Positions 4,087-31,419 of a stretch of 64,000 nt of DNA are shown here, piece after piece. A program made the position numbers and the translations under genes. The DNA comes from Vulcanimicrobiota bacterium. Lineage in GTDB: Bacteria > Vulcanimicrobiota > Vulcanimicrobiia > Vulcanimicrobiales > Vulcanimicrobiaceae. The notes below the pieces were generated by a model. The model was not told the origin of the DNA. It worked only from the letters and a program-made list of their open reading frames with translations, and made no database searches. Position 1 is the first letter of the stretch. Each line of letters begins with the position of its first letter. The stretch is taken from positions 62,001-126,000 of the forward strand of contig PMSI01000004.1 of assembly GCA_003168375.1 (NCBI GenBank), given 5' to 3'.

Positions 4087-4965
4087 TTAGTAGCGCTTGG
4101 ACGCGGTCGCCTCGCGCGTGCGCTGGATCATCTCGAGGGACCGTTCGTGGTGTTTGTTCGCGACCCCGACGTAGAGCGTGTCGACGATCGTGAGCTGCGC
4201 GATGCGGCTCGAGCTGGCGTCGCTGCGGAACGCCGTCTGCTGCGCCGCGGTGACGAGCACGACGTCCGAGACCTTCGTGATCGGCGAAGACGGCCGATGG
4301 GTGATGCAGACCGTCGTCGCTCCGTGCGCCTTGGCACGCCCGAGCGCGTCGGTGACGTCGCGGCTGGCGCCGGTGTGCGATATCCCGAGCGCGACGTCCT
4401 CCGGCCCGAGCAGCGAGGACGACATCGCCATCAGGTCGCCGTCGGAGAGCGCGATCGACTGCAGCCCGAGCTTGAGGAACTTGTGGTACGCGTCGAGGGC
4501 GAGCGGCGCGCTGCCGCCGACGCCGTAGATTTCGACGCGCCGCGCGTCGGCCAGAGCGTCGACCGCGCGCTGCAGCTCGCCGTCGTCGAGCACCTCGATC
4601 GTATCGCGGAGCGCCTGCGTGTTGGCCTGGAAGACCTTCGCCTTGACGGTGGCCAGATCGTCGCCCGGCTCGATCGCCGCGTAGATCTCGGTCGTCTCTT
4701 CGACCAGATCGCGCGCCAGCACGATCTTGAACTCCTGATAGCCTTTGTAGCCGATCTTCTGGCACAGGCGCACGACCGTCGACTCGCTGGTGTGCGTCCG
4801 CTCGGCGAGTTCCGTCACCGTCAGGTAGATCAGCTCGTCGGGAGCCTTCAGGATGAAGTCGGCGACGCGCTGCTCCGCGGCCCGAAGCCCCGAGTATGCT
4901 CCTTGCAAACGTACAAAGGAACCTGGGACCTTGACCGGGTCGACGCGCACGCCTTTCAACGCCAT
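4087..4965 (-). CDS. RpiR-family transcriptional regulator (HTH + SIS)
   Basis: A 292-residue regulator. Residues 1-80 are an RpiR helix-turn-helix (LTVTELAERTHTSESTVVRL, then GYKGYQEFKIVLARDL), and residues 120-270 are a sugar-isomerase (SIS) domain with the phosphosugar-binding loops YGVGGSA and ISHTGASRDV. Members sense sugar phosphates and control sugar catabolism. The ATG at 4965 is chosen because the 44 residues upstream in the same frame are Arg/Pro-rich and unlike the family. No sugar catabolic gene lies next to it, so the regulon is unknown. Confidence 0.93.
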   Translation of the reverse strand: MALKGVRVDPVKVPGSFVRLQGAYSGLRAAEQRVADFILKAPDELIYLTVTELAERTHTSESTVVRLCQKIGYKGYQEFKIVLARDLVEETTEIYAAIEPGDDLATVKAKVFQANTQALRDTIEVLDDGELQRAVDALADARRVEIYGVGGSAPLALDAYHKFLKLGLQSIALSDGDLMAMSSSLLGPEDVALGISHTGASRDVTDALGRAKAHGATTVCITHRPSSPITKVSDVVLVTAAQQTAFRSDASSSRIAQLTIVDTLYVGVANKHHERSLEMIQRTREATASKRY

Positions 4966-5006
4966 GATGCGCACGGTTCGCGAAACCGCATGCTGCGGCC
5001 TCGGCG

Positions 5007-5390
5007 CTAGCCCTCGCGGCTCTCGAAGAACCTCGCGCGGTGCTGTTTGCGGACGAGATGGCGCTCGAACGGCTGCGGCCGGTCCGGCGGCGCCCATTCT
5101 TCGGTCGACTTGAGGTAGGCGGCGATCTGCGCCTCGAACGAGGGATCGGTCAGTGCGGGAACCTCGGTCGTCGGCGTGACCTCGTCGATGCGCGTCTGGG
5201 CCAGGACGACCATCTTCCCCAGCAGGTCGAAGGGGAGCGTCGCCTCTTTGTGTTCGAGCGCCCGCGTGTACGCGGCGCGATTCTTGTTGACGTCACCGAT
5301 CGGCGACGCGACGAGGCGGCCGTCCTCGAGGCGGACCGTCGCGCCCAGGTTGTGGACGTTGATCACGCTCCCGCGGACGCGCTCGCTCAC
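5007..5390 (-). CDS. Small S1-like protein, unknown function
   Basis: A 127-residue cytoplasmic protein. The first 30 residues (GSVINVHNLGATVRLEDGRLVASP) resemble the first strands of an S1/OB RNA-binding fold. The rest is charged and ends in a basic tail (RKQHRARFF). Its ATG overlaps the stop of the FtsB-like gene by four bases, so it is translationally coupled as the last gene of the accD-accA run. An RNA-binding role is inference from the weak S1-like pattern. Confidence 0.75.
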   Translation of the reverse strand: MSERVRGSVINVHNLGATVRLEDGRLVASPIGDVNKNRAAYTRALEHKEATLPFDLLGKMVVLAQTRIDEVTPTTEVPALTDPSFEAQIAAYLKSTEEWAPPDRPQPFERHLVRKQHRARFFESREG

Positions 5391-24133: not shown

Positions 24134-24780
24134 TCGCGCGGGTCGCGGAGCTCGGGCGGCTGCTCGATCGTTTCGACCGGTGCGGGCTCATCCGGACGCG
24201 CCACGTACGCGTATGCGGCGGAGCGCTGACGCGACGGGATCATGAAGAGCACGAGTCCGGCCAGAAAGCCGGTGATCAGACCGCCGATGTGTCCCGCCGC
24301 CGAGATGTTCGGGATCGCGAATGTCAACACGAGGTTGAACACGATGACCGGGAGCACCTGACCGATAAGGCCGCGACCGCGCTTTCCGAGCCGTAGTCCG
24401 ACCGCGACGAGCGCACCGAACAGACCGAAAATCGCGCCGCTCGCCCCGACGGTCAGGTCGTTTGGGGCAGCGTAGACCACCGCGAGGCCGGCGCCCACCA
24501 GCGCGACCGCGTAGAGCAACGCGAACCGCACTTTGCCGAAGATTTGCTCGACGCTGCTCCCGACAAAATACAGGGCCAGCATGTTGCTCCCGATGTGCAC
24601 GAGTCCGCCGTGGAGAAACGCACCCGTCACGATGCGCCACCATTGTCCGCTCTGCGTGCAGGCGATGCCGAGCAGCGCACCGTGATCGAACAGGGCGCGA
24701 TCCGACGACAGACCGCCGGTCGAGATCAGCCAGAGGTAAGCGACGACGTTGATCGCGATCAGGAGGTTGGTGAGGGTCAC
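24130..24780 (-). CDS. Rhomboid-family intramembrane serine protease
   Basis: A 216-residue rhomboid. Six membrane helices; the oxyanion HGGLVHIGSNM segment (His57, His62, Asn66), nucleophile Ser114 in GASGAIFG, and His164 in AAGHIGGLITG form the active site. It cleaves membrane proteins within the bilayer. The C-terminal 40 residues are Pro/Glu-rich and cytoplasmic. The start is GTG at 24780, overlapping the stop of the DtxR-type regulator (GTGA), and the stop overlaps the helicase start. Confidence 0.93.
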   Translation of the reverse strand: MTLTNLLIAINVVAYLWLISTGGLSSDRALFDHGALLGIACTQSGQWWRIVTGAFLHGGLVHIGSNMLALYFVGSSVEQIFGKVRFALLYAVALVGAGLAVVYAAPNDLTVGASGAIFGLFGALVAVGLRLGKRGRGLIGQVLPVIVFNLVLTFAIPNISAAGHIGGLITGFLAGLVLFMIPSRQRSAAYAYVARPDEPAPVETIEQPPELRDPRE

Positions 24781-25466
24781 GCGCTGAGCGCCGGGCTCGC
24801 CTCCAACGTTATCGCGATCAGCCGCGCGAGCTCGATCGAGATCGCCGTCCGGCCGCTGGCGCCTTCGATCGTGATCGGACCACCGAGCGGGCCGCGCTCG
24901 ACGACGTCGACGCTCGCGCCGGGCCGCAGCCCGATGCGGTCGAGGTATCGCAGCGTCTCGGGGACGTCTTCGACGACCTCGACGACCCGCACGGTGCTGC
25001 CGGCCTGCGCGTCGGCGAGCCGCAGCCCGACGCGGACCGGTTCGCTCAGGTCGGCTGGTGGGATGGGGTGGCCGTGCGGGCACACCTTGGGATCGCCGAG
25101 GATCGCGACGAGCCGCTCCTCCACGCGCTCCGAGATCGCGTGCTCCAGCCGGCACGCCTCCTCGTGCACCTCGTCCCACGGCATCCCCAGGACGTCCTGG
25201 AGGAACACCTCGGCGAGCCGGTTCCGGCGGATGACGCGGACCGCGACCTTCAGCCCCTTCTCGGTGAGCTTCGCCGTGCCGCGCGCCTCATATGCGAGGT
25301 AGCCGTCCGCGGTGAGCTTCTTGAGCATCCCCGAGACCGAGGCCGGCGCGACGCCGAGATCGGCGGCGAGCCCGGACGTGGTCACGCCGGGGCCCTCCCG
25401 CTCCAGCCGGTAGACGGATTCGAGATACTCTTCGGTCGACTCGTCGAAATGCGTGTGACCGGGCAT
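24777..25466 (-). CDS. DtxR/MntR-family metal-dependent regulator
   Basis: A 229-residue repressor. The N-terminal winged helix has STEEYLESVYRLEREGPGVTTSGLAADLGVAPASVSGMLKKL; the metal-binding and dimer region follows with HEEACRLEHAISERVEERLVAILGDPKVCPHGHPIP, where the Glu, His, Cys and His residues are the family's metal ligands. The C-terminal 80 residues form the FeoA/SH3-like third domain. It would sense iron or manganese. The start at 25466 gives the family N-terminus. No metal transporter lies beside it; it heads an operon with the rhomboid and helicase genes. Confidence 0.93.
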   Translation of the reverse strand: MPGHTHFDESTEEYLESVYRLEREGPGVTTSGLAADLGVAPASVSGMLKKLTADGYLAYEARGTAKLTEKGLKVAVRVIRRNRLAEVFLQDVLGMPWDEVHEEACRLEHAISERVEERLVAILGDPKVCPHGHPIPPADLSEPVRVGLRLADAQAGSTVRVVEVVEDVPETLRYLDRIGLRPGASVDVVERGPLGGPITIEGASGRTAISIELARLIAITLEASPALSA

Positions 25467-25470
25467 TACT

Positions 25471-26493
25471 TTAAGAGATTCGACCAGCCGGCGCGGAGTT
25501 CCGGGAACGCTCCAGCGCCGCGTGCAGCCGCGCCTTCGTGGCCGGGGCGGCGAACGACGCGTCGATGCCGTTCCGGGCGAATCGCAGGATGGCGTCCTCC
25601 CCGAACGTCTCGGCGACGTACCGGTACTCGTCGAGCAGCGTGGTGCCGAACAGCGCCGGGTCGTCCGCGTCGATCGTGACGATGCAGCCGGCGGCGTCGA
25701 GCTCCCCGAGCGGATGGACCGCCCCGGCCGGGGCCGCACCGGTCAGCCGGTTCGACGTCGGACAGATCTCGAGGGGGATTTGCCGCTCGGCGAGCAGCGC
25801 CACGACGGCCGGATCTTCGATCGCACGAACGCCGTGGCCGATGCGCTCGGACCGGAGCACCTCCACCGCAGCCCGCACGCTCTCGGGGCCGGCGGCCTCG
25901 CCGGCGTGCGCGACCCCGTGCAGCCCGCCGTCCCGGGCGATCGCGAACGCCCGCTCGTAGAGCTCGGGCGGATAATTCGCCTCGTCGCCTCCGAGCCCGA
26001 CGGCCACGACGCCGAGGTCGCGGAGCGTGACGGCCTCGCGTGCCGACTGTTCGGCACACTCGACGCCAAAGTTCCGGGTTAGGTCGGCGATCAGCGCGAC
26101 CTCGATCCCGAGCGGCCCGCCGGCCTCGTCGAGCGCGGCGCGGATCGCCTCGACCGCCACCCGGACGTTCAGGTCGCGGTGGAAGAACGACCAAACCGAC
26201 GGCGAGACGAAGACCTCGGCGTAGCGGACGCCTTGCGCCGCGGCGTCGGCGGCGTAGTCCCGCGCGATCCGCGCGAAGTCGTCGGGCTCGCGCAGCGCCT
26301 CGGTGACCTTGGCGAACAGCAACAAGAACTCGCGAAAGGTCTCGAAAGCGTACGTTTGCGCCGGATCGGCGCGCTCGCCCAGCGCGATCCCGTACTTCGC
26401 GGCCAACGCCCGGAACGTCTCGGCCCGGACCGTGCCCTCGAGATGGCAGTGAAGCTGCACCTTCGGGAGGGCGGCGAGATCGAGACCATACAC
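25471..26493 (-). CDS. add: Adenosine deaminase-family amidohydrolase
   Basis: A 340-residue zinc deaminase. Metal and active-site residues: His15 and His17 (LHCHLEG), His195 and Glu198 (HAGE), His219 (RIGHG), Asp276-Asp277 (DADDPALFGTTL). This is the adenosine deaminase pattern, converting adenosine to inosine. Close relatives act on adenine or aminofutalosine, so substrate is not proven. The gene ends four bases before the DtxR-type start and probably shares the transcript. Confidence 0.9.
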   Translation of the reverse strand: MYGLDLAALPKVQLHCHLEGTVRAETFRALAAKYGIALGERADPAQTYAFETFREFLLLFAKVTEALREPDDFARIARDYAADAAAQGVRYAEVFVSPSVWSFFHRDLNVRVAVEAIRAALDEAGGPLGIEVALIADLTRNFGVECAEQSAREAVTLRDLGVVAVGLGGDEANYPPELYERAFAIARDGGLHGVAHAGEAAGPESVRAAVEVLRSERIGHGVRAIEDPAVVALLAERQIPLEICPTSNRLTGAAPAGAVHPLGELDAAGCIVTIDADDPALFGTTLLDEYRYVAETFGEDAILRFARNGIDASFAAPATKARLHAALERSRNSAPAGRIS

Positions 26494-26616: not shown

Positions 26617-26657
26617 ACAGGTCCAACAAATGAAGATTTGTTGGACCTGTTTATTTT
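26617..26657 (+). terminator. Rho-independent terminator of tRNA-fMet
   Basis: Arms 26617-26630 and 26637-26650 pair perfectly over 14 bases around a 6-base loop, followed by TTATTTTGT. It is one of the few AT-rich spots in the window and the only classic intrinsic terminator I see. Confidence 0.92.
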
Positions 26658-26839: not shown

Positions 26840-27877
26840 TCAGGGCGCCGGCCTTGCCCCCAGCAAGTGGCCTCGTGTGACGATGCGGCGAAGCCGTTCG
26901 GGGACCGTCCGGCGCTCCCGTTTGAGCCAGCGAGCAAACTCGGCGAGTCCGTCGTCGAGAGGAACGCAGGGGCGCCACGACCAGCGTTCCCCGGCGCGAT
27001 CGATGTTGGCGTAGGTTATGTTCATTTCGCCCGCCGGGCGTGCGACGAACCGCACGCGCGGTGAAATCTCGAGCGCGTTGCCCAGCTTCTCGACGAGGTC
27101 GAGCACCGTCACGGGCGAGGCGTTTCCGAGATTGACGATCCGGAAGCCCGAGCGTTCCCGGGCTGCCGCCGCGATGCCGCGCACGATATCGCTCACGTGC
27201 GTAAAGTCGCGCGCCATCGATCCGTCGCCGAACACGGTGATTTCTTTCTTGCGCAGCATCGCGGTCGCGAACTTGCGGATCGCCAAATCGGGCCGTTGAC
27301 GGGGACCGTACACGGTGAACAGCCGCAGGACGGTAATCGGCGCGGCGAAGGTTTCGGCGGCGGCCGCGCACAGCAGTTCACAAGCGCGTTTCGTCGCCGC
27401 GTAGGGACTGAGCGGCGCGTTGCAAGGCGCCGACTCTTCGAAGGGCGGCACCGTATCGTTTCCATACGCCGAACTGGTCCCGGCGAACACGATCGGCACG
27501 GGATGCTGCCGCGCGAATGCATCGAGCAGGTTTTGCGTGGCGACGATGTTCGATCGCACGTATCGCGCGGGTTCGGCGACCGATCGGCGCACCCCGGGCA
27601 TCCCCGCCAGATGGATGACGACATCGGGGCGCGCGCGAGCCGCAAGGCGCTGCGTCGTGCCGGGGGCGGCCAGGTCCATCACCTCCAGTTCGAATCGCTC
27701 GTCGTGCAAAGCCGCTTCGATGTTCGCGACCTTGAGGCGCGGATCGTAATAGTCGTCGAACGAGTCGATTCCGTGGACGCGATAGCCCGCAGCGAGCAGA
27801 TGCTCGACCACGTGCGAGCCGATGAAGCCCGCGCAGCCGGTAACCAGCGCGCGGGGCGGTGCGGAGGCGCCGCTCAT
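26840..27877 (-). CDS. NAD-dependent nucleotide-sugar epimerase/dehydratase
   Basis: A 345-residue extended short-chain dehydrogenase. The NAD site is VTGCAGFIGSHVVEHLL (Gly14, Gly17, Gly20); Ser135-Ser136 and the Tyr159-xxx-Lys163 pair form the catalytic triad. HGIDSFDDYYDPRLK near 35-49 is a typical UDP-glucuronate/UDP-galactose 4-epimerase feature, and RLFTVYGPRQRPDLAI is present, so a UDP-glucuronate 4-epimerase role is likely. The ATG at 27877 overlaps the stop of the radical SAM gene. This fits with the UDP-glucose dehydrogenase-like gene divergent from the operon, which would supply UDP-glucuronate. Confidence 0.9.
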   Translation of the reverse strand: MSGASAPPRALVTGCAGFIGSHVVEHLLAAGYRVHGIDSFDDYYDPRLKVANIEAALHDERFELEVMDLAAPGTTQRLAARARPDVVIHLAGMPGVRRSVAEPARYVRSNIVATQNLLDAFARQHPVPIVFAGTSSAYGNDTVPPFEESAPCNAPLSPYAATKRACELLCAAAAETFAAPITVLRLFTVYGPRQRPDLAIRKFATAMLRKKEITVFGDGSMARDFTHVSDIVRGIAAAARERSGFRIVNLGNASPVTVLDLVEKLGNALEISPRVRFVARPAGEMNITYANIDRAGERWSWRPCVPLDDGLAEFARWLKRERRTVPERLRRIVTRGHLLGARPAP

Positions 27878-28992
27878 GCCGGGCTTTGTTTCGGACGCCG
27901 CAACGAACCGCGGGTCGTCAGCGCGTGCTTGAAGATATCGCCCGAATAGACCGCACTGGGTAAGACTTCGCATTCGGCCCAACAGCCGGGACACGCGCGC
28001 ACCCAGGTTCGTGCCGACTCCGCGGGTGCGCCGAACCAGATTTCTTCAAAGGTCTCTTCGCGCAGATTGCCCAGCCGCCGGCTGTTGAATTGACAGATGG
28101 GCACGTCTCCGTTGGGGAAGATTCGAAGGTGGGCGCGCACCGCGACGCAGGGCGGATTGGGGCTTGCCTCCTGCGCGAGGAGCCGGTTGCGGATGCCGTC
28201 GAGGTAATAGCGCTTCGCCGCTCGATCGGCCCGCGCGTACGATTTCAGGTCCGACTCGATCGCGTCGAAGAGTCCTTCGAGCTCCGCGGGCGAGATGTCG
28301 CCGAACGCTTCGAACTGTCCGGGATAACTCGGCGCCAGATTCGCCTCTTGAGCGATCGAATACGTCGCGCTCGCGCGGTACGCGACGACGACTTGGTTCT
28401 GGATGCCCAGCGGCGCAAGGATCGCGTGCAGTTCGCGGTATTGGGCGGCTCCGGCGGCGTCGACCACCGTTTGATTGACGGCGAGGCTCAGCCGCAATTC
28501 TTTGCGGCGCGGAGCAAGCGCCTCGATCGTGCGCATTGCCGCACGGAAGGCGCCGCGGTGTCCGCGGATCGCATCGTGCGTGTCGCCGACGCCGTCGATC
28601 GAAACCAGCAGCTTGAGCGGAATCGTCCTGGGCCTGCGCTCGCAGAAGTCCACGATACGGTCGGTCAGGAATCCGTTGGTGGTGACATGGAGCAGCGCGG
28701 GCTCGAGCGCGCTCACGGCGACGCGCGCGATGTCGGTGAGATCCTTACGGACGAACGGTTCGCCGCCGCTCAACCTGACGGCGTCCATCGGCGGCAACCG
28801 GCTAAAGATGCGCTCCACGTCCGCGAGGGAGAGGTCGCCCTGCGAGTCCTTGCGCCACGAATCGCACATCACGCAGCGCGCGTTGCACGCAAACGTGACG
28901 ATGTACGTCAGCATGCGCGGAAGGCACGCTTCGCCGCGGCGGACTTTCCAGATCGTGCGCGCCAATGCCGCAGCCCGCCGGATCGGTCTCAT
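27874..28992 (-). CDS. Radical SAM protein with SPASM-like C-terminus
   Basis: A 372-residue radical SAM enzyme. The 4Fe-4S site is Cys36, Cys40, Cys43 (CNARCVMC). LSGGEPFVRKDL follows near 75 and LVSIDGVGDTHDAIRG near 135. The C-terminal third has CVAVRAHLRIFPNGDVPICQF, then LGNLREETFEEIW and CPGCWAEC, the pattern of a SPASM/twitch domain that holds extra clusters. Such proteins modify peptides or sugars. No precursor peptide is visible nearby. The start overlaps the end of the glycosyltransferase gene, so it works between that gene and the epimerase in one operon; a carbohydrate or cell-surface product is inferred. Confidence 0.92.
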   Translation of the reverse strand: MRPIRRAAALARTIWKVRRGEACLPRMLTYIVTFACNARCVMCDSWRKDSQGDLSLADVERIFSRLPPMDAVRLSGGEPFVRKDLTDIARVAVSALEPALLHVTTNGFLTDRIVDFCERRPRTIPLKLLVSIDGVGDTHDAIRGHRGAFRAAMRTIEALAPRRKELRLSLAVNQTVVDAAGAAQYRELHAILAPLGIQNQVVVAYRASATYSIAQEANLAPSYPGQFEAFGDISPAELEGLFDAIESDLKSYARADRAAKRYYLDGIRNRLLAQEASPNPPCVAVRAHLRIFPNGDVPICQFNSRRLGNLREETFEEIWFGAPAESARTWVRACPGCWAECEVLPSAVYSGDIFKHALTTRGSLRRPKQSPA

Positions 28993-30095
28993 CGGATCGA
29001 CGCGTGCAGCTCGCGTTGCAGCGGCTGGGTCTGTGGCGGGAGGTGGCGGCGAAGCGCGGCAAGTGCGGCAGGGTTGCCGTTCATGCGCTCGCAGACGATA
29101 TGCGAACGGTAGAAATCGACGCGCGCCAGAAAGCGGCGGAGCGCCGACGCGCTCACCCGGTCGAACTCGAGCCACTCACCCGTCAGCTCGTTCGCGAGCA
29201 AATGCCCGTGTAACAGTTGTTCTGCGTTGTTGGGCTCGGGAAGCGCGAGAACGGGCTTCTGCAGATAGAGCGCCTCGCCGAGCAATTGGTTGCCGGCGGT
29301 CGTGACGAGCGCGTATGACGTCGCGAGATCCTCGATAAACCGTCGCTCGTCGATGGCGAAGAAGTGGATCTTCCCGCGACTCGGCTGCGCGCCCAAGCCG
29401 TAGGCGCGGACCTCTCTGCCGGTCGCGGCGAGCGCGTCGATGAGGCGTTCGGAACCGAACTTTCGCAGATAGACGACGAGGTGCGCACCGTGTTCCGCCC
29501 GTGCATCGAGCACCTGCGGCCGCAAGAGTGGGCCGACTTCGACGGTGCGCCCGATCGCCGGGCGCAACCCGGGAAAGCAGAACGAAGAAACGACGGTCGC
29601 CGCTTGGCCCTGATAGTAGAGTTCGACGATCTTGCCCAACCCGGCGGCGCGCCACTGCAAGGTTTTGGGTAGATACGAGAGGTCGCTCGTGACCAGAAAG
29701 TGCTGATGGTCGAGGCTGACAAACGGAACGCCGCGGCGCACTGCGGCACGCGGCAGCGACGGTTCGAAATCCGTGAGGACCAAGTCCGGCCGCTCGCGAT
29801 TGATCGCGCGCTCGAGGCGTGCGATTAATTCCGGGAGCTTCGCAACATAGGCGAGCGCGCCGAGCGCGGTGCGCCACGGCGACACGGAGCGGTTCGCCGC
29901 GTATTCGAAATGCAGACCGGGGATGCGAATCACGCGAACGTCGGAATCCGCATAGAGCGGCGCGAGCATATCGAACGCATCGCCCGGAGCAAAGATGACG
30001 AATCGATGTTCGGAGCGCAGCAGCTCGACGATCGTCCGGACGCGCGTCGCGTGCCCGCGGCCTTCGCCTGCCAGACTGTAGAAGATCGTCGCCAT
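28989..30095 (-). CDS. GT-B glycosyltransferase, MurG/MJ1255-like
   Basis: A 368-residue two-domain glycosyltransferase. The N-terminus FYSLAGEGRGHATRVRTIVELL carries the glycine-rich GEGRGHATR loop of the MurG/UGT-like superfamily; the C-terminal donor domain has the TTAGNQLLGEALYLQKPVLALPEPNNAEQLLHG segment, typical of binding the nucleotide sugar. Acceptor unknown. It is the first gene of the three-gene operon; the divergent dehydrogenase lies 261 bases away across a large inverted repeat. Confidence 0.9.
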   Translation of the reverse strand: MATIFYSLAGEGRGHATRVRTIVELLRSEHRFVIFAPGDAFDMLAPLYADSDVRVIRIPGLHFEYAANRSVSPWRTALGALAYVAKLPELIARLERAINRERPDLVLTDFEPSLPRAAVRRGVPFVSLDHQHFLVTSDLSYLPKTLQWRAAGLGKIVELYYQGQAATVVSSFCFPGLRPAIGRTVEVGPLLRPQVLDARAEHGAHLVVYLRKFGSERLIDALAATGREVRAYGLGAQPSRGKIHFFAIDERRFIEDLATSYALVTTAGNQLLGEALYLQKPVLALPEPNNAEQLLHGHLLANELTGEWLEFDRVSASALRRFLARVDFYRSHIVCERMNGNPAALAALRRHLPPQTQPLQRELHASIR

Positions 30096-30193
30096 TCGCT
30101 TACCGCGGACGCTTCGGCATCAGCATGATGAGCGTGCCTTCACGCTTTACACGTTCACTCCTCGACAGGTTCGGCGAAGAAAACAACACGTGC

Positions 30194-30262
30194 ACGCATA
30201 CGCTTTGCCTAATTGAAGTTTTCGGCGAACCAAACACTTCAAATTAGGCAAAGCGTATGCGT
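30194..30262. repeat. Large near-perfect inverted repeat in a divergent intergenic region
   Basis: Left arm 30194-30219 and right arm 30236-30262 are reverse complements over 26 bases, with one extra T in the right arm; the spacer is 16 bases. The arms are AT-richer than the surroundings and contain GCCTAATT; a related CACCTAATT lies at about 30273-30281. It sits between the glycosyltransferase (minus, starts 30095) and the dehydrogenase-like gene (plus, starts 30357). It could be an operator, a hairpin RNA or a mobile palindromic element. The rest of 30096-30356 shows no gene. Confidence 0.8.
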
Positions 30263-30356
30263 ACATTCGCCTCACCTAATTCGTAGGCGGTCCGTCTCAC
30301 GCGTGTAATAATAAGTGCGTCATGCCTCAGATTCACGTTGGAATGGAGTTCGTTCT

Positions 30357-31244
30357 ATGAAGGTCGGCATCGCGGGGTTTGGGTTCATCGGCAACGCGCT
30401 CGCGCGCTGTTTCTCCCTATCCGAGGAGATCGATCTGTACGTTTTTGACAAGTACAAAGAAGCGTATTCGGCGCCCGAGCGATTCGAGGCGTTGAACTCG
30501 TGCGACATCGTCTTCGTCACGGTTCCGACACCGTTCGACAAGAAGCGTCGGTGTTGCGACGCCTCGGCCGTCGAAGACGTCATCAGCCGCTTGGAAGCGC
30601 CCGCGTGCATCAAGTCGACCGTGCCGCCGGGGACCACCGATCGCCTAGCAGGGGCGACCGGCAAGAAGCTTGCCTTCAGCCCCGAGTTCATGGGTGAATC
30701 CGCGGTGCACCGCTGGCCCGAAGTCTACAGCTCCGGCTTCGCCGTCTTCGGAGGACATCCGCAGGCATGTGAAAGCGCCCGCCGCGCGTACGAGTTGTCG
30801 TCCCCCGTTCCCCTGGAGTTCGTGGAGACCACGGCCGCCCTCGCCGAGCTAAGCAAATACATGCTGAACGGGTTTCTAGCGACCAAGGTGTCGTTCATGA
30901 ACCAGTTCTACGATATCGCTACGCAGGCAGGCCTGGATTTTGCGGAACTGCGGAGGCTCTTCTTACTCGATCCGCGCATCGGCGAGTCGCACACCGTCGT
31001 AACCCGCGAGCGCGGCTTCGGCGGCAAATGTTTCCCGAAAGATTTGAACGCGATTATCTCCTGGGCATCGCAGCGCGGCGACCCGTCGTTTCTGCGGGCC
31101 GTGGCCGACTACAACGATGCTATCCGCCACGTCGACCTCGCGGAAGTGCCGAAAACAACCGCTCGCTCTCGCAAACCCTTGAGGGTCGTCCAAGCGATCA
31201 AGGCGATCGCCCGCCGGCCGCGCCAAGCGCTACAGGGCCCGTAA
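30357..31244 (+). CDS. UDP-glucose/GDP-mannose dehydrogenase-like protein, short form
   Basis: A 295-residue protein of the UDP-glucose 6-dehydrogenase family. It has the NAD site MKVGIAGFGFIGNALA, SPEFMGESAVHRW, the central helix AELSKYMLNGFLATKVSFMNQ and the catalytic Cys225 in GFGGKCFPKDLNA. The C-terminal UDP-binding domain (roughly the last 130 residues of a 430-residue enzyme) is absent. A GGAG lies eight bases before the ATG. Catalytic residues are intact, so it may be active as a short-family member or need a partner for the missing domain. Oxidation of a nucleotide sugar would feed the divergent epimerase and glycosyltransferase. Confidence 0.88.
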   Translation: MKVGIAGFGFIGNALARCFSLSEEIDLYVFDKYKEAYSAPERFEALNSCDIVFVTVPTPFDKKRRCCDASAVEDVISRLEAPACIKSTVPPGTTDRLAGATGKKLAFSPEFMGESAVHRWPEVYSSGFAVFGGHPQACESARRAYELSSPVPLEFVETTAALAELSKYMLNGFLATKVSFMNQFYDIATQAGLDFAELRRLFLLDPRIGESHTVVTRERGFGGKCFPKDLNAIISWASQRGDPSFLRAVADYNDAIRHVDLAEVPKTTARSRKPLRVVQAIKAIARRPRQALQGP

Positions 31245-31419
31245 GCCGATTACCCGTCGGCGACTGCTCACCGCTGCTGTTGCGGCTGGAGCCGCGCTCG
31301 CGGGACTCGTCTATGAGTTCTCGCCCGACGGCGCGCGGCGACGGGGAGTTTCGTTACACGATGCTCGACGCGTCAGTCGGGACTGTTGTATGACAGCTTC
31401 CCGGACGCTGCGGCGCTGA
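31183..31419 (+). other. Possible Tat-leader-like remnant without a start
   Basis: An open frame from 31183 to the TGA at 31417-31419 reads PITRRRLLTAAVAAGAALAG, a good twin-arginine signal pattern, and then ends after about 30 residues. It has no ATG, GTG or TTG start and overlaps the end of the dehydrogenase-like gene. It may be the broken 5' end of a lost exported enzyme, or chance. Confidence 0.25.

Follow-up and report, generated by a model that had tools for sequence, protein, structure and literature searches.

What does a near-perfect inverted repeat do between two divergent sugar genes? The repeat lies in the window, which is the whole stretch of 64,000 nucleotides from a Vulcanimicrobiota genome that was analyzed here. 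A sequence-only reading had described two arms that differ by a single extra base, a 16-base spacer, an unusually low GC content, a third arm-like copy just beyond and a position between divergent sugar genes, and all of this is confirmed. The arm at 30194-30219 is the reverse complement of that at 30236-30262 but for one extra base, and 16 bases (30220-30235) separate the two; the GC content of the repeat is 0.44, against 0.63 to 0.70 in most of the neighboring 500-bp bins; a third copy, CATTCGCCTCACCTAATT, is found at 30264-30281 with 78% identity to the arm; and domain matches identify the flanking genes as coding for a glycosyltransferase on the minus strand and a UDP-sugar-dehydrogenase-like protein on the plus strand. 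The same reading had offered three roles for the repeat, as a two-sided operator, a regulatory hairpin RNA, or a palindromic element, which are weighed below.

Anatomy of the hairpin and its gene neighborhood

The elements of the spacer between the two genes are as follows.

30194-30219, no strand assigned: left arm, ACGCATACGCTTTGCCTAATTGAAGT, 26 nt, read directly
30236-30262, no strand assigned: right arm, ACTTCAAATTAGGCAAAGCGTATGCGT, 27 nt with the one extra base, read directly
30191-30265, no strand assigned: full near-perfect hairpin (palindrome), 75 nt, with one bulged base and a 4-nt loop
30264-30286, no strand assigned: third, degenerate copy, able to form an alternative minus-strand hairpin with the right arm
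30161-30175, no strand assigned: outer sequence, predicted to enclose the main hairpin by pairing with 30266-30277, with a bulge of 12 nt on one side
30177-30189, minus strand: T-rich stretch just past the hairpin, interrupted, at best a weak terminator tail
30304-30313, either strand: AT-rich stretch, a candidate -10 element, where the promoter scan found none

The repeat is longer than the arms first described. It spans 30191-30265, with ungapped arms of 24 nt at 96% identity and an inner 13-nt inverted repeat, so that a single strand folds as one long hairpin with a loop of four bases. In the folding model, the window copy forms 34 pairs on the minus strand. This hairpin is far beyond chance. 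The exact arm, present twice in the window, appeared in none of 100 shuffles of it. When hairpins are scored as ungapped matches minus twice the mismatches, the core reaches 21, compared with a best score of 12 in 300 resampled spacers and of 14 in 8 resampled 64-kb windows, and the folding z-scores are -9.6 on the plus strand and -9.3 on the minus strand. An Rfam search of the hairpin returned no family at the gathering threshold (the best match had 29.4 bits, where the gathering score is 98); the sub-threshold matches are mostly to microRNA families, as is likely for any long hairpin.

The spacer that holds the hairpin comprises 258 bp (30096-30353), and the start codons of the two divergent genes lie 95 bp and 88 bp from the 75-nt hairpin, one on each side. 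The neighboring genes and the block to which they belong are listed here.

28989-30095, minus strand: glycosyltransferase of 368 aa, by domain match (PF13528)
27874-28965, minus strand: radical SAM/SPASM protein, start taken from the codon model (listed open reading frame, 27874-29175)
26840-27994, minus strand: NAD-dependent sugar epimerase/dehydratase, by domain match
30354-31244, plus strand: short gene similar to UDP-glucose/GDP-mannose dehydrogenases, 296 aa, with just the N-terminal and central domains
26860-31370, no strand assigned: 4.5-kb block, flanked differently in a contig of another species that matches it at 99.4% identity

The glycosyltransferase is found at an E value of 1e-15 or lower in only 2 of 60 genomes. 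The 296-aa dehydrogenase-like protein has no match to the usual C-terminal domain. Its relatives beyond the genome that shares the block (G004, see below) are 29 to 33% identical and mostly archaeal (Pacearchaeota, Nanoarchaeota) in one genome-contig scan; homologues in G007 (54% identity) and G001 (49%) have no similar hairpin upstream. No regulator gene was recognized among the genes of the 4.5-kb block. Just outside the block, at 26617-26650, a perfect 15-bp hairpin, ACAGGTCCAACAAATgaagATTTGTTGGACCTGT, lies between two minus-strand genes and is a possible terminator.

Distribution and the shared 4.5-kb block

The sequence-only reading had noted that many identical copies at unrelated sites would point to a mobile palindrome. 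A search of the same genome (4.43 Mb in 7 contigs) with the arm gave one locus: there is no other occurrence within 2 mismatches, and one further place appears at 3 mismatches of 19. The spacer has matches in 2 of the 149 genomes of the phylum at an E value of 0.001 or lower, its own genome among them, and the idea of a mobile palindrome is not borne out. In a search of 60 genomes at E values up to 0.01, 5 genomes match, three of them over just 20 to 29 bp, and a structure-aware model finds 2 of the 60 at E values up to 0.1. The hairpin has no match in phage or plasmid collections, and its exact arm and loop sequences are absent from viral contigs. The loop motif, TTCGGCGAAnnAAACA, was considered separately as a dispersed element; it occurs with no more than one mismatch in 33 of 60 relatives, 0 to 5 times in each, and these occurrences were taken as chance or coding matches.

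The second genome with the hairpin, G004, is a metagenome-assembled genome (MAG) of the WPS-2 group and belongs to the same genus; its contig, L012, fits CALEOJ010000235.1. Positions 26860-31370 of the window match positions 266-4778 of L012 at 99.4% identity, and the remainder of L012 has just partial matches in the genome of the window, the two longest at 79 and 75%. The block ends on the right within an open reading frame; L012 has this frame without interruption (4523-5149), and the window has a truncated remnant of it with a 2-base gap. Judged by this identity between regions with different flanks, the block looks to have been recently transferred or recombined between species; alternatively, the G004 contig may be chimeric in the MAG. 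An invertible promoter was rejected, as the hairpin has the same orientation in both genomes and a very short spacer.

Alignment of the two blocks reveals 29 differing columns, of which 5 fall within the 258-bp spacer and 2 of these within the 75-nt hairpin. The G004 hairpin is closer to perfect than that of the window: all 35 of its modeled pairs are formed on the minus strand, one of them as G.U, and each of the two differences makes the window copy less perfect. The outer pairing (30161-30175 with 30266-30277) was modeled in both copies. The hairpin differs at 2 of 75 positions, the remaining spacer at 3 of 183, and synonymous positions at 11 over about 1,073 sites (about 1%). As the rate in the hairpin is no lower than in the rest of the spacer or at synonymous sites, the hairpin is without visible constraint between the two genomes, albeit on very small numbers. 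For covariation, just two homologous copies are available, and they are near-identical.

Long hairpins elsewhere in the genome

We examined 1.6 Mb of the same genome (G000) in 80 stretches which, together with the window, amount to 1,664,000 bases of 4.43 Mb; the gene calls came from our own codon model, not from a standard gene finder. Five hairpins in these bases score 20 or more. Two of the five belong to the dispersed REP-like repeat CTTCGACAAGCTCAGG and were set aside. The remaining three are all located in divergent spacers, which make up 28.6% of the intergenic bases; this count includes the hairpin that prompted the census, and both the cutoff of 20 and the exclusion of REP-like copies were picked after the list had been seen. 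For the two independent hairpins alone, the chance that both fall in divergent spacers is about 0.08 (0.286 squared).

The first of these two, at L090 16615-16697 (G000:C4:316615-316697), is an 83-nt hairpin between divergent genes near a Baseplate_J-type gene and consists of two head-to-head copies of the 24-bp sequence CACTAGGGTAATCCCCAGTCGTAA. G003 also has CACTAGGGTAATCCCCAGTCGTAA as a facing pair, and G048 and G046 each have one copy of it; the sequence is a candidate class-wide regulator site. Both single copies lie near open reading frames that by eye resemble P-loop ATPases. The second, at L154 16481-16551 (G000:C4:976481-976551), is 71 nt long, has arms around GTTTCACCGTTATGTAAAAC, and lies between a small gene that has no Pfam match and looks by eye like a LAGLIDADG gene and a CCA-adding-enzyme-like gene (PolyA_pol and HD domains). 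Among the 60 genomes, it is found in its own genome only and thus speaks neither for nor against a regulator.

A 400-kb sample of G006 contained 9 hairpins with scores of 16 or more, 7 of them REP-like in appearance and 2 inside genes. There was no non-REP hairpin in a divergent spacer in that sample, so that the pattern of G000 is not reproduced there.

The repeat CTTCGACAAGCTCAGG(GTGAC), which we take to be REP-like by its motif as seen in L101, is dispersed and forms long hairpins at window positions 1513, 47245, and 48246, at L101 8067-8173, and at L163 3312-3393; several stretches of G006 carry it in a variant form, GTCACGCTGAGCTTGTCGAAGCGC.

Weighing the explanations

One or both of the flanking genes are probably controlled through the hairpin. 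The fuller form of this reading, that it is a two-sided control site of two divergent units with its arms homogenized by hairpin-templated repair, is the best of the explanations compared here, although our preference for it is tentative; a functionless by-product and a leader RNA stand close behind it in the ranking. The argument starts from direct observations, namely, the anatomy, the single locus, the divergent position, the block common to another species, and a parallel within the same genome, where a facing-copy hairpin occupies another divergent spacer and its site occurs singly elsewhere. The spacer 30096-30353 contains three copies of one sequence, two of them head-to-head and near-identical and one degenerate. 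In the proposed mechanism, a DNA-binding regulator would recognize these copies and so exert joint control of both divergent genes, and hairpin-templated (template-switch) repair would hold the facing copies near-identical over 34 to 36 bp.

Head-to-head operator pairs are known from divergent bacterial promoters, where inverted copies lie between functionally related genes. The window site resembles them in having inverted copies of one sequence between divergent related genes, but its nearly identical arms of 34 to 36 bp are longer than a usual site, and no regulator or regulon was found. The window hairpin and L090 16615-16697 are both long, near-perfect, and placed between divergent genes of the same genome, but the L090 arm has single or paired relatives in three other genomes, whereas no relative of the window arm is found beyond the shared block. 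The sequence-only interpretation is borne out in part, and its two-sided operator gains indirect support. This operator is favored by the inverted copies between divergent genes, by the divergent position of 3 of 3 long non-REP hairpins and by the L090 parallel; the missing part is the regulon, given that the arm has no other copy within 2 mismatches in its own genome and that a degenerate arm pattern gave only chance-level matches outside the locus across 60 genomes, about as many as the reversed-pattern control. Since the site does not recur as a regulon would, the hairpin is not filed as a proven divergent operator; its regulator may be purely local. DtxR box sequences contain TTAGG, and DtxR/MntR-type half-sites in the spacer were considered on account of a DtxR-family gene at 24777-25739; their spacing does not fit. 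Two further observations count against a control site: near-identity of the arms over 34 to 36 bp exceeds the needs of a protein site, and the hairpin lacks extra conservation (2/75 against 11/~1,073 at synonymous sites).

The latter observation bears on the next reading, which is unlikely but the foremost of the rivals: in a spacer free of constraint, a template switch or an inverted duplication would have left a young, decaying palindrome without function. Its appearance in just two genomes, both with the recently transferred block, would agree with this, as would the finding that 2 of the 5 spacer differences lie in the hairpin, both spoiling the perfect form in the window copy, at a rate that is not lowered. 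The hairpin is surrounded by partial repeats (TTCGGCGAAnnAAACA twice and the third copy), as successive template switches would leave them. Template switching that perfects quasi-palindromes is described for yeast (PMC3820800), and hairpin-associated template switching in bacteria is described in a review (PMC10710837). In both, as proposed for the window, imperfect inverted repeats are turned into near-perfect ones, but the published cases are mutational events observed in assays, whereas the window hairpin is seen as an end product alone. On this reading, however, the placement of long non-REP hairpins in divergent spacers would have to be put down to coincidence or to a preference of the mutational process, and so would the finding that the transition-type mispairs are all G.U on one strand (see below); the substitution counts are too small to demonstrate an absence of constraint. 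The open-access papers searched on Eremiobacterota hairpins and on long intergenic palindromes with cruciforms in bacteria contained nothing on this element.

We regard as doubtful, and place third, the idea that the minus-strand operon (glycosyltransferase, radical SAM protein, and epimerase) begins with a leader RNA. Attenuator leaders use mutually exclusive hairpins. In the model of the window site, a transcript would start near 30297, the third copy and the right arm (1:2) would fold first, and branch migration would then produce the long hairpin (2:3), attenuating transcription or shaping mRNA stability. As in attenuators, the right arm could pair with either the third copy or the left arm in a minus-strand RNA, but not with both. 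Thermodynamic prediction indeed gives mutually exclusive hairpins on that strand, which would have to be the transcribed one. For the minus strand, the predicted stability is -23.0 kcal/mol for the alternative 1:2 hairpin and -51.0 for the main hairpin; the plus-strand values are -11.6 and -42.4, respectively. Each of the six transition-type mispairs of the two window helices (30232-30223, 30263-30193, 30271-30252, 30273-30250, 30274-30249, and 30282-30241) is a G.U when read on the minus strand and hence an A.C on the plus strand, which favors a minus-strand RNA (two-sided chance 0.03, uncorrected). Strand-biased mutation could produce the same bias, though, and a seventh mispair, 30235-30220, is G.A, unpaired on either strand, and involves a base that differs from G004. 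The T-rich stretch at 30177-30189 follows the stem on the minus strand, but it is interrupted and begins 2 to 3 nt past the stem, unlike clear terminators of the same genome such as those at L197 10044 and L163 15464. Nor did a promoter and terminator scan find either element, and the hairpin has no Rfam family at threshold. Compared with attenuator leaders, then, the window site is without a terminator tail, and no leader peptide or ligand domain was identified.

A more elaborate version is improbable: the leader of a glycan operon that moved horizontally would act as an RNA switch of three strands, the outer strand included. In this version, the first hairpin, formed by the third copy and the right arm and wobble-paired only on the minus strand, would be displaced by the hairpin of 34 to 36 bp via an 11-bp toehold hairpin; the outer strand at 30161-30175 would then capture the freed third copy, and sensing would come from whatever stabilizes the first hairpin.

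An ordinary (bidirectional) terminator or an insulator between the two divergent units is very improbable. The stem is strong and one side of the hairpin has a T-rich stretch, but the position is divergent rather than convergent, the terminator scan found no T run at the stem end, and the stem is about twice the length of terminator-like hairpins that score 16 to 18 in the same genome. The hairpin does not combine a GC-rich stem with an immediate T run, the hallmark of an intrinsic terminator.

REP and MITE elements are palindromic intergenic DNA in dispersed form; the window hairpin is likewise palindromic and intergenic but occupies one locus. A mobile palindrome (REP, MITE, or similar) is the least probable explanation of all: it would suit inverted ends with almost nothing between them in a genome that does carry a REP-like dispersed repeat, but only 2 of the 149 genomes of the phylum have the hairpin, each at one locus, it matches no phage, plasmid, or viral contig, and no target-site duplication was seen by eye in its flanks.

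If the hairpin is merely a young palindrome, it would be a clear natural case of a near-perfect hairpin that is starting to decay. If it is a control site, the divergent switch of a glycan gene block would have traveled with that block from one species of a little-studied phylum to another. It would also suggest a rule to be tested for G000, namely, that long non-dispersed hairpins mark divergent promoters.
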